The position numbers and the translations under genes were made by a program. The notes beneath the pieces are model-generated. The model had not been told where the DNA came from and made no database searches. It saw nothing but the letters and a program-made list of their open reading frames with translations. A DNA stretch of 64,000 nucleotides from Anaeromyxobacter dehalogenans 2CP-1 (GTDB lineage: Bacteria > Myxococcota > Myxococcia > Myxococcales > Anaeromyxobacteraceae), in assembly GCF_000022145.1 (NCBI RefSeq), contig NC_011891.1, forward strand, positions 4,756,501-4,820,500. Direction: 5' to 3'. This document shows, piece by piece, positions 4,763-48,140 of the stretch; the stretch's first letter is position 1, and every line of letters begins with the position of its first letter.

Positions 4763-10306
<5,544 letters not shown>

Positions 10307-15120: not shown

Positions 15121-15589
15121 GGGGGCTTTGAAGGGCGCGGCGGGGGTGCGTGGCCGGAATGGGTTCGGAAGCGGAGCTGGAGGTCGGGCAGCGGGCTTGC
15201 GGGACGGGCCTCGCTGGCCGCGGCCGGCGACGGGGGATCGGCTTGCGAGAGGCCTGATGGCGGGGCGGGGCTGGCTTCCGCCGGGCGCGGCCGCGCTTCT
15301 CCGCTCATGGTGAGCCCCGTCGAACCATGAGCGGGATGCCGGGACCGAAGTCACGCTGAGTGACTGCTTGCAGCCCAACTGGAACGCGCTCCGCGGTTGA
15401 CGCTCCCTTCACTGTAAGACGATCCCGCGGTCTTGGGCGCACGGGAACCCTGCCCAGAACGCACTGCCTCTCGCCTGCGCCTCGCGCTCTCGTTCCGAGC
15501 GCGTTTGCGACCCTGCCCTCCCCTTCGCGTGCCTGGCGCCGAATGCGTGCGTTCGGGGAGGGCCCGGAAACGCGTGAGAGAGTGTCGAC
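15121..15589. other. Gene-free spacer before the HNH endonuclease
   Basis: No gene is supported in these 469 bases. The notable content is the hairpin repeat at 15301-15334. Downstream of it base composition is visibly lower in G+C than in the flanking genes. A TTGACG hexamer at 15397-15402 is followed by TAAGAC only 12 bases later, which is too close for a normal sigma-70 promoter. GAGAGAG 7 nt before ATG 15590 serves as ribosome site for the HNH gene. Confidence 0.5.
15301..15334. repeat. Hairpin repeat, copy 1 (left of HNH gene)
   Basis: The perfect 10-bp arms CCGCTCATGG (15301-15310) and CCATGAGCGG (15325-15334) enclose the 14-nt loop TGAGCCCCGTCGAA. The arms-plus-loop pattern (CCGCTC ... 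GAGCC ... GTCGA ... GAGCGG) recurs at 16635-16667 on the other side of the HNH gene, with matched compensating changes in the stem. It resembles the widely dispersed REP-like palindromes with a TGAGC-N-GTCGA core seen in proteobacteria. Confidence 0.65.
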
Positions 15590-16663
15590 ATGGGCACTGC
15601 GCGTGAACTCTCGGATCGGCTCGCCACCCTCCTACGCCGTGAGCGCTCGGCGCTCGCGGAGTTCCTGGTCGCGCTCGCGGGCTTCGACGCGAGGCGCGCG
15701 TGGGCGGAGCTGGGGTACGCCTCGCTCTTCCACTACCTGCATCGCGACCTCGGGCTGTCGAAGGGCTCGGCGCAGTACCGGAAGGTCGCGGCGGAGCTGA
15801 TCCAGGCGGTCCCGGCCATCGTCGAACCGCTGCGGGACGGGCGGCTGTGCTTCACGACCATCATCGAGGTGGCGCGGGTCGTCACGGCGGAGAACTGGGA
15901 GACGGTGCTGCCTCGGTTCTTCGGGCTGTCGCGGCACGAGGCGACCGAGGTCGTCGCGGCGCTCGCGCCGCACCCGGCGCCGCCGGTGCGGACGGTGCTC
16001 ACGGCGGTGCCTCGGGCGCCGGCTGGTTCAACTGTTGAACTGAATGTCCCTGCGGTGACTTTTGGTTCAACTGTTGAACCGACGGGCACGACGGTGGCGT
16101 CCAGTTCAACTGTTGAACTGACCGCCGCGGCGCACTCTCCCCGCGGCGCGACGGTCACACCGCTCACCGCGACCCTTCAGCGGCTTCATGTCACGGTAAG
16201 CGAACGTTTCGGGCGCAAGCTTGAGCGGCTGCGCGATCTTCGCCCGGATCTCTCCGACGACGCGCTCCTCGAGGCCGCGGTGGATCTGCTGCTGGCGAAG
16301 GCGGAGAAGCGGAAGGGCGGCGGAGCTCGTTCCTCGGACCGGCCTCGTGCCTCGGTCCGGCCTTCCCGCGACCCAGGCTACATCCCTGCCCACGTTCGCC
16401 GGGAGGTCTGGCGGCGCGACGGTGGGTGCTGCCAGTGGCGGCTCGCCAACGGCGAGATCTGCGGCTCCACGCATGCGCTGCAGCTCGACCACGTCGTGCC
16501 GCGCGCGCTGGGCGGGGAGTCCAGCGTGGGCAACCTTCGCGTGCTCTGCGCGGCGCACAACCTCGAGGCGGCGCGGCGGGTGTTCGGCGACGCGCTGATC
16601 GACGCGTACGCGCCGGGACGTCTGCACCGGGCTACCGCTCGTCCCGAGCCTGTCGAGGGATGA
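15590..16663 (+). CDS. HNH endonuclease with DUF222-like N-terminal region
   Basis: A 357-residue protein. The N-terminal helical part (1-135; AWAELGYASLFHYLHRDLGLSKGSAQYRK) matches the DUF222-like region that precedes HNH domains in many actinobacterial and myxobacterial proteins. The C-terminal HNH domain (about 265-340) has IPAHVRREVWRRDGGCCQW, ALQLDHVVPRALGGES and NLRVLCAAHNLEAAR, giving the H-D-H and N/H residues of the beta-beta-alpha metal finger. A Ser/Thr/Val-rich linker (about 143-185) contains three STVE[L/P] repeats encoded by palindromic DNA. The last codons (ARPEPVEG) are supplied by a hairpin repeat. It is presumably a nicking or double-strand endonuclease of mobile or defence type. 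It stands alone without a partner methylase. Confidence 0.85.
   Translation: MGTARELSDRLATLLRRERSALAEFLVALAGFDARRAWAELGYASLFHYLHRDLGLSKGSAQYRKVAAELIQAVPAIVEPLRDGRLCFTTIIEVARVVTAENWETVLPRFFGLSRHEATEVVAALAPHPAPPVRTVLTAVPRAPAGSTVELNVPAVTFGSTVEPTGTTVASSSTVELTAAAHSPRGATVTPLTATLQRLHVTVSERFGRKLERLRDLRPDLSDDALLEAAVDLLLAKAEKRKGGGARSSDRPRASVRPSRDPGYIPAHVRREVWRRDGGCCQWRLANGEICGSTHALQLDHVVPRALGGESSVGNLRVLCAAHNLEAARRVFGDALIDAYAPGRLHRATARPEPVEG
16026..16120. repeat. Three palindromes at exact 39-bp spacing inside the HNH gene
   Basis: Three inverted repeats share the core TTCAACTGTTGAA. Their centres lie at 16033, 16072 and 16111, each 39 bp apart. Perfect arms are 7 bp (16026-16040), 8 bp (16064-16080) and 9 bp (16102-16120), each around a single central T. 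In frame they encode the repeated tetrapeptide STVE followed by L or P. They are more A+T-rich than the gene around them. Confidence 0.9.
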
Positions 16664-16667
16664 GCGG
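16635..16667. repeat. Hairpin repeat, copy 2 (overlaps HNH stop codon)
   Basis: The arms CCGCTCGTCC (16635-16644) and GGATGAGCGG (16658-16667) pair over 10 positions with one G-T. The loop is CGAGCCTGTCGAG. The HNH stop codon (16661-16663) lies in the right arm. The core matches copy 1 at 15301-15334, so the two copies bracket the HNH gene. Confidence 0.65.
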
Positions 16668-47684: not shown

Positions 47685-48140
47685 CCACGGGGACTGCGTC
47701 CCCGCCCCGCCGGCGGAGCCGTCGGGGCCCCACCCCTGCTGCGCGGGGCCCGTGACCTCGCGCGCCCGCCTGCGCGGGCGCGCGCGAGGTCCCCGCGGCG
47801 AGGGGCTACGCCCCTCCCCCGCTGCGCGGTGCCCCCTCCCTGCTCGCCTTCCATCGGCTGACGGCGAGCGTGGCCGCGGGAACGACGTGGGTCTGTCGAG
47901 GGGCGTTTCGGGCGCCCGAAACGAAGGTGGGCATTTCATGCGCATGAAACGCCGCCGCCCCACCCTCGTCCGCGCTCGAGCCGGCGGGCGCCACGCCGGC
48001 TCCGCGTGACGCGCACCGTGGCTCGCCCTCCGGCCTCTCGCGAGCCGACCGCGCGGCCCCGGTTCCGGGCCCGCGGAACCGTCCCGGACGCCGTCGAACC
48101 CTCGAAGCCCGTGCCCGCTCCCGCTCGGCACGACATCCCT
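47685..48140. other. Gene-free convergent spacer rich in hairpins
   Basis: These 456 bases between lepB and the ligase hold no supported gene but many dyads. Examples are GGGGAC-tgc-GTCCCC just after lepB, a bulged stem built from CCTCGCGCGCCCGC and its complement, GAGGGGC-tac-GCCCCTC, the two perfect palindromes at 47904-47949, and CGGTTCC-N8-GGAACCG near 48066. The first could serve as the lepB terminator. Nothing here looks like tRNA or a known structured RNA. Confidence 0.55.
47904..47949. repeat. Pair of perfect palindromes with shared TTTC...GAAA ends
   Basis: CGTTTCGGGCGCCCGAAACG (47904-47923) is a perfect 20-bp palindrome. TTTCATGCGCATGAAA (47934-47949) is a perfect 16-bp palindrome. 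Both have the form TTTC-N8-GAAA and their centres are 28 bp apart. In addition GGCGTTTC at 47902 can pair with GAAACGCC at 47946-47953, so the pair can also fold as one large hairpin. Confidence 0.8.

Follow-up and report, generated by a model that had tools for sequence, protein, structure and literature searches.

Within the window, that is, the 64,000-nucleotide stretch of the Anaeromyxobacter dehalogenans 2CP-1 genome analyzed here, an HNH nuclease gene carries three perfect palindromes in the DNA that encodes its predicted disordered linker. Such palindromes are concentrated in the linkers of a multi-copy gene family that shows concerted evolution, they are constrained at the level of codons, and they switch together with a helix of the encoded proteins. 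As judged from these sequence patterns, the palindrome is very probably the protein's own binding site. The whole statement, in which an HNH gene harbors its own parS-like site in the linker, site and helix have co-diversified, and the arrangement plays a selfish role through gene conversion, is one that we favor with more reserve. The gene and its parts are laid out as follows.

15590..16663, + strand: HNH nuclease gene, 357 aa, one of 15 loci of its family in the genome
15590..15967, + strand: N-terminal helical domain, residues 1-126, DUF222-like, with a predicted ParB/Noc/KorB-type helix-turn-helix (model and fold comparison)
15740..15781, + strand: predicted recognition helix-turn-helix, codons 51-64, with the positions that switch in the sister subfamily (51, 55, 60 and 63)
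15968..16159, + strand: linker-coding region for residues 127-190, with predicted disorder (block pLDDT of 36-61 for residues 131-190), containing the palindromes
16026..16040, no strand: palindrome 1, GTTCAACTGTTGAAC, arms of 7 bp, center at 16033
16064..16080, no strand: palindrome 2, GGTTCAACTGTTGAACC, arms of 8 bp, center at 16072
16102..16120, no strand: palindrome 3, CAGTTCAACTGTTGAACTG, arms of 9 bp, center at 16111
16178..16327, + strand: strand-helix-helix segment resembling a ribbon-helix-helix dimer domain, residues 197-246 (model)
16388..16609, + strand: HNH nuclease domain, residues 267-340 (PF01844 and model)

The three perfect palindromes, their 39-bp spacing and their arms of 7, 8 and 9 bp had been described in an earlier note on this DNA, and both coordinates and centers were confirmed. 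The motif that they share, TTCAACTGTTGAA, occurs three times in the window (16027-16039, 16066-16078 and 16105-16117); with up to two mismatches it has six matches on both strands, against 0.13 expected per shuffle of the window. The genome-wide search that the note had proposed returned nine copies in the 5,029,329-bp single-contig genome, all of them in three HNH paralogues with three copies apiece, spaced by 39 or 78 bp; the rest of the 5.03-Mb genome has none. Since 39 bp correspond to 13 codons, the repeats keep the reading frame. Over 27 units from three loci in three genomes, the palindromes (15 bp) are 97.5% identical while the spacers (23 bp) are 50.5% identical; within one gene the same set gives 96.9% and 50.1%, and the spacers of the window gene's own three units are 48-52% identical. 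Because the palindromes are so much better conserved than the spacers, the array is judged to be old, with its palindromes under selection. The recent tandem expansion suggested earlier is rejected, since the spacers have diverged as far within a gene as over all units, and what stands of that idea is that the number of tandem units varies between orthologous loci (3/2/3, 4/3/3 and 5/1/3). The growth of the arms from 7 to 9 bp, which had been read as a sign of expansion, is due only to chance bases flanking a 15-bp core.

A protein search of the genome yielded 20 matching stretches, which we grouped into 15 loci, leaving aside one further weak match (28% identical). All 15 loci have a perfect linker palindrome with arms of at least 7 bp, in several different sequences: GTTCAAC-n-GTTGAAC in three loci, TTCGGGCGCCCGAA in nine, one of which also has TTCATGCGCATGAA, TTCATGCGCATGAA in two further loci, and TTCATCCGGATGAA together with TTCACCCGGGTGAA in one. 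Relatives belong to Anaeromyxobacter, and 22 of the 24 genomes of the taxonomic family have between 1 and 40 matches, with other palindromes; those in the linkers of relatives include TTCTGACGTCAGAA (arms up to 15 bp), TCCCGACGTCGGGA, TCCAACCGGTTGGA and CGGACTTCGCCGGCGAAGTCCG, while AACTGGCCGTACGGCCAGTT is the linker palindrome in Eisenbacteria MAGs. The peptide encoded at the palindrome differs by group (STVE, FRAPE or FHAHE). The exact TTCAACTGTTGAA is absent from most homologues, and such an absence, which the note had offered as a pointer to a chance coding repeat, would have misled, because different palindromes occupy its place. A 38%-identical multi-copy subfamily (L135-L151, in genomes G003, G005 and G007) has no A/T-containing linker palindrome and provides a natural negative control, and the copies in G004 and G006 have imperfect repeats only. 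Plasmids and phages, when searched, contained few relatives, and viral contigs gave HNH-domain matches only, or none. Four copies of one genome, G011 (L128, L130, L131 and L132), have in addition a second palindrome, TCGCTCCTCGCCGAGGAGCGA, with arms of 9-10 bp, some 40 nt after the start of the gene in the part that encodes the N-domain.

The palindromes are concentrated in linkers and constrained at the codon level. Taken alone, a per-gene shuffle test is not significant for most 7-bp cases (p 0.06-0.33 for copies of TTCGGGCGCCCGAA), because GC-rich codons yield chance palindromes, and we therefore turned to pooled and codon-level tests. The 207 ORFs comprised 152 distinct ones, forming 113 clusters at 90% identity, of which 112 were counted (linker of 90-450 nt). 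Palindromes with arms of at least 7 bp and at least four A/T bases are present in 60 of these 112 linkers, as opposed to a mean of 4.3 and a maximum of 8 of 112 in synonymous shuffles; flanking windows have them in 54 of 1518 cases. When arms of at least 9 bp are required, the figures are 27.7% of linkers against 1.5% of synonymous shuffles, 0.9% of N-domains, 0% of C-domains and 1.5% of the 1518 flanks. Codon usage points the same way. STVE at palindromes is encoded by TCA-ACT-GTT-GAA in 23 of 24 units, the exception differing at the center base only, and none of the 25 other STVE occurrences in the same set uses these codons. As for FRAPE, all five codons are invariant in 11 aligned TTCGGG genes, compared to 34% of 205 other residue-invariant columns. 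A chance coding repeat is ruled out by these codon controls (shuffles, flanks and STVE codon use).

A comparison of 12 proteins whose genes have TTCGGGCGCCCGAA with six whose genes have TTCATGCGCATGAA, in which L040, with both palindromes, was placed in the first group, links the site to a short stretch of the protein. Over 346 aligned columns, 138 of which are variable outside the linker, the only fixed differences outside the linker are R51H, G55K/R, A60S and Y63L. Just seven of the 138 variable columns fall in positions 51-63, and the chance that all four fixed ones lie there is 2.4e-6. Of 20,000 random splits, 19,912 were without a fixed column, 87 had one and a single split had four. As the 18 sequences are related, the split test is not a strict probability, and more weight rests on the way in which the four columns cluster. 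An Anaeromyxobacter ParB alignment matches positions 55 and 63 to G170 and N178 of Caulobacter ParB, both of which contact parS according to the accessible text of PMC7383237. The pair of site and helix differs between species at two orthologous loci (L032/L076 and L041/L078/L089), and a protein 48% identical to that of the window (L193) combines TTTCGGGCGCCCGAAA with the same residues R51, A60 and Y63. Two copies fit less well: L040 has the first helix type along with both palindromes, and moving it to the other group would abolish the fixed differences, and L196 is a contrary case with TTCGGGCGCCCGAA and a different helix. In a partial Mantel test on 60 representatives with palindromes, the helix did not stand out from the remainder of the N-domain (r 0.07, p 0.14). 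The earlier note had named three options, namely recent expansion, an operator for autoregulation and the enzyme's own target; as a putative binding site the last is the best supported, because the palindrome changes with the predicted DNA-recognition residues, while cutting is a further step that we infer.

The AlphaFold2 model, built from a 41-sequence alignment, begins with a helical N-domain; a disordered linker leads to a strand-helix-helix segment (residues 197-246), and an HNH domain follows. In a fold comparison of the modeled N-domain (pLDDT 95), ranks 1-12 are all ParB, Noc, Spo0J or KorB (Z 5.5-8.0) and the first unrelated fold follows at Z 4.7, values to be read with the caution that a Z of about 8 is modest for helical folds and can be unspecific, and that the N-domain structure is a prediction. 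The DNA-binding domains of ParB, Noc, Spo0J and KorB also come top for the N-domain when the full model is compared. A direct hhalign of the N-domain with ParB gives a weak match (probability 1.5%, E 0.034) that aligns the helix-turn-helix stretches, and a sequence search of the N-domain against solved structures found nothing convincing. The label DUF222-like given in the earlier note is justified by the relatives, 9 of 41 of which match PF02720 at E <=0.01 (best 8.2e-5), though the window protein itself has no match at E 0.01; in the genome this profile matches ten places at E 0.001. In the predicted model, residues 197-246 resemble ParD2 (7b22, Z 4.9) and the ribbon-helix-helix of plasmid ParB (Z 4.7), an RHH_5 profile matches one of the 41 relatives, and this ribbon-helix-helix-like segment is a probable dimer contact. 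PF01844 matches the window protein with 22.9 bits, above the curated cut-off of 21.4, which places it in the HNH superfamily, and it matches 32 of the 41 relatives; the HNH part is similar to McrA, to IscB and to a Geobacter HNH nicking enzyme.

The family is comparable to ParB/Noc/KorB and their parS or NBS sites in its predicted N-domain fold, in a putative switch of specificity at the equivalents of residues 170 and 178, and in a putative site that is a palindrome of 13-16 bp, most often with TTC...GAA edges that resemble parS. It differs from ParB/Noc/KorB in having an HNH domain and no CTPase domain, and in its many copies with different sites per genome. No ParB CTPase fold is seen in the model, which is a helical domain from residue 4 on, and the three places in G000 that match TIGR00180 do not include a gene of the HNH family. 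The available part of PMC12704722 reports a fusion of a ParB-CTPase fold with HNH, from which the window protein differs, since its model lacks that fold. The mycobacterial DUF222-HNH genes of the REP13E12 (13E12) type are likewise multi-copy genes that combine DUF222-like and HNH parts, and the available text of a preprint (PMC13061034) lists REP13E12 loci among the most frequently gene-converted loci of Mycobacterium tuberculosis. An internal cognate site is not described for REP13E12 in the portions of the literature covered. Unlike the family studied here, four canonical DUF222 genes (L305, L306, L312 and L307) have no linker palindrome, and an extension to canonical DUF222 genes is unsupported by these four copies, with L305 as one odd case. 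This canonical DUF222-HNH gene, from another Myxococcota genome, has CGTCTCCGCGGAGACG twice in its ORF, at positions 2139 and 2691 and outside the linker; the three other canonical copies have none.

At the three TTCAAC loci in three genomes, the N-part is as similar between orthologues (identity 0.906) as between paralogues of the same genome (0.905), while for the C-part the values are 0.852 and 0.824; the flanks are 90.6-97.9% identical at the two TTCAAC loci where they align apart from the gene. This pattern of N-part and flank identity fits gene conversion, or concerted evolution, among copies.

The mechanism that we prefer would start from an HNH nuclease composed of an N-terminal ParB/Noc/KorB-type helix-turn-helix, a disordered linker, a ribbon-helix-helix-like segment and an HNH domain, whose linker-coding DNA would carry the dimer's own parS-like palindrome, making the gene its own target. 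Site and recognition helix would be inherited as one block and would have diversified jointly, giving paralogue groups with different addresses. The protein would bind the palindrome and its HNH domain would nick or cut, and breaks in or near the linker, once repaired from another copy, would lead to mutual conversion that keeps the family alive, a putatively selfish role. Given at least a dozen homologous copies from which breaks could be repaired, a palindrome-reading dimer joined to a nuclease could direct gene conversion. HNH homing endonucleases are alike in combining HNH with site-specific binding (here predicted) and in a possible spread or persistence by break-induced gene conversion. 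In homing, however, the site lies in the empty allele and is absent or split in the allele that carries the gene, whereas here, provided that the palindrome serves as recognition site, it lies intact inside the enzyme ORF at 15 of 15 loci, and the family consists of dispersed paralogues. More tentatively, the family may represent self-addressed nucleases in which reader and address form one block, each paralogue group has a separate address, gene conversion is aimed, and bare addresses are left behind as relics or mini-elements.

The main rival, which we consider unlikely but which could coexist with a self-targeting nuclease, is autoregulation, in which the protein, bound at the site within the gene, would keep its own and possibly toxic nuclease from being transcribed. 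The sites do lie inside the gene itself, in one to five copies, and repeats 39 bp (3.7 turns) apart would bind several dimers; co-switching of helix and site suits any binding role, and plasmid partition proteins autoregulate their own operons, according to the accessible part of PMC7022226. Both mechanisms have known precedents: the self-targeting nuclease in homing through gene conversion, autoregulation in partition-type proteins that act on a site within their own gene. Against autoregulation, all nine genomic copies of TTCAACTGTTGAA are in linkers and none is at a promoter, the site is about 430 bp inside the gene, and the palindrome is perfect in dead copies without all or most of the N-domain (L291, L043 and L082). 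Of these, L043 and L082 were found by protein similarity and have lost the N-domain; L291 was found through its flank and, with most of its N-domain gone, retains CGGTTCATCCGGATGAACCG and GTGGTTCACCCGGGTGAACCAC. Our reading of the alignments is that the linker is reversed in L083 and the N-part in L044, both with palindromes kept perfect, and in L286 a deletion removed the palindrome. Another damaged copy lies in the window itself.

47904..47923, no strand: CGTTTCGGGCGCCCGAAACG, arms of 10 bp, in a gutted HNH locus between signal-peptidase-like and DNA-ligase-like genes
47934..47949, no strand: TTTCATGCGCATGAAA, second palindrome of the gutted HNH locus

The orthologous place of this relic (47904-47949) in G002 still has an HNH gene copy; the relic is a biased case, having been found via its own palindromes.

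Less likely still is a dispersed mini-element of REP or MITE type, about 40-105 bp around the palindrome, which would have lodged in a permissive linker and which the HNH protein may or may not move. This reading draws on 14 isolated sites (in G031, G012 and G025) that have no HNH gene closer than about 1.5 kb, eight of which share 41-105 bp with HNH linkers, the others sharing sequence only with one another, and on the REP-like hairpins that are also present in the linkers of L031-L039. Because of this sharing, the isolated sites are either gutted genes or a mini-element. How closely sites keep to HNH genes varies: TCCAACCGGTTGGA has 9 of its 10 sites in HNH genes (G024-G026) and TTCTGACGTCAGAA has 8 of 13 in G031 and just 3 of 11 in G012, and neither was found in G000, G006 or G011. 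Sites outside HNH genes are thus common in the two related genomes G031 and G012, and such sites count against the self-target reading. Three palindromes in the present genome have 21 of 25 sites in HNH genes or fragments, two in the relic and two elsewhere, which speaks against a mini-element, as do the co-switching helix and the finding that one position in the gene is occupied by different palindromes, both unexpected for passive insertion; the HNH gene at the orthologue of the 47.9-kb site means that a relic explains at least that site. In REP/RAYT systems, too, a family gene is associated with short palindromes in the same genome, but the enzyme there is a Y1 transposase and here HNH, and the palindrome here lies within the gene itself and for the most part has not been scattered over this genome. 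No Y1 (HUH) transposase was found, the profile matches being only HNH and DUF222-like. Among the isolated sites, one group in G012 shares a dispersed repeat of about 150-178 bp with TTCTGACGTCAGAA and no HNH gene nearby (L335 1440-1612, L339 and L342), and this group also counts toward a mini-element. A solitary TTCGGGCGCCCGAA with extended arms (CGTTTCGGGCGCCCGAAACG), close to CCTTCGACAGGCTC repeats at L154 position 2027 (G000:C1:3794226), is identical over 20 bp to the relic at window position 47904.

Finally, it is most improbable that an mRNA hairpin or the encoded peptide is the thing selected: the palindromes do lie in a transcribed ORF and some G006 copies have imperfect arms and loops, but the peptides differ between groups and codons rather than residues are constrained, the site changes along with helix residues of the predicted DNA-binding domain, relics retain the palindromes, and the 21 core types are perfectly symmetric through the center, which fits DNA, although symmetry was required by the detection.

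In the literature searched, which included few subscription journals and some papers in part, we found no description of palindromes inside DUF222-HNH genes. Should the palindrome indeed be the protein's own binding site, the targets of DUF222-HNH proteins would be readable from the genome, each gene stating what its protein recognizes. The role of repeated DUF222-HNH genes would become directly testable and their status as gene-conversion hotspots would be partly explained, and the paired helix and site variants would offer a natural set for studying how DNA-binding specificity evolves in an apparent ParB/Noc fold.

Several other features were observed. At window positions 16635-16667 the HNH gene ends in a REP-like hairpin, CCGCTCGTCCCGAGCCTGTCGAGGGATGAGCGG, which encodes the C-terminus and overlaps the stop codon; L286 has a related hairpin where its deletion is joined, and others are found in the linkers of L031-L039. 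Immediately 5' of the start codon, at about 15545-15589, is a conserved leader of about 45 nt (GTGCGT...CGAAA..CGCGTGAGA...), common to family members of several genomes and possibly their promoter; in the leaders of 29 family copies the window-type palindrome was not seen, and the leader motif is there instead. Elsewhere in the window, positions 5423-8415 hold a tandem array of 276-bp units, with 10.8 copies and 85% matches.
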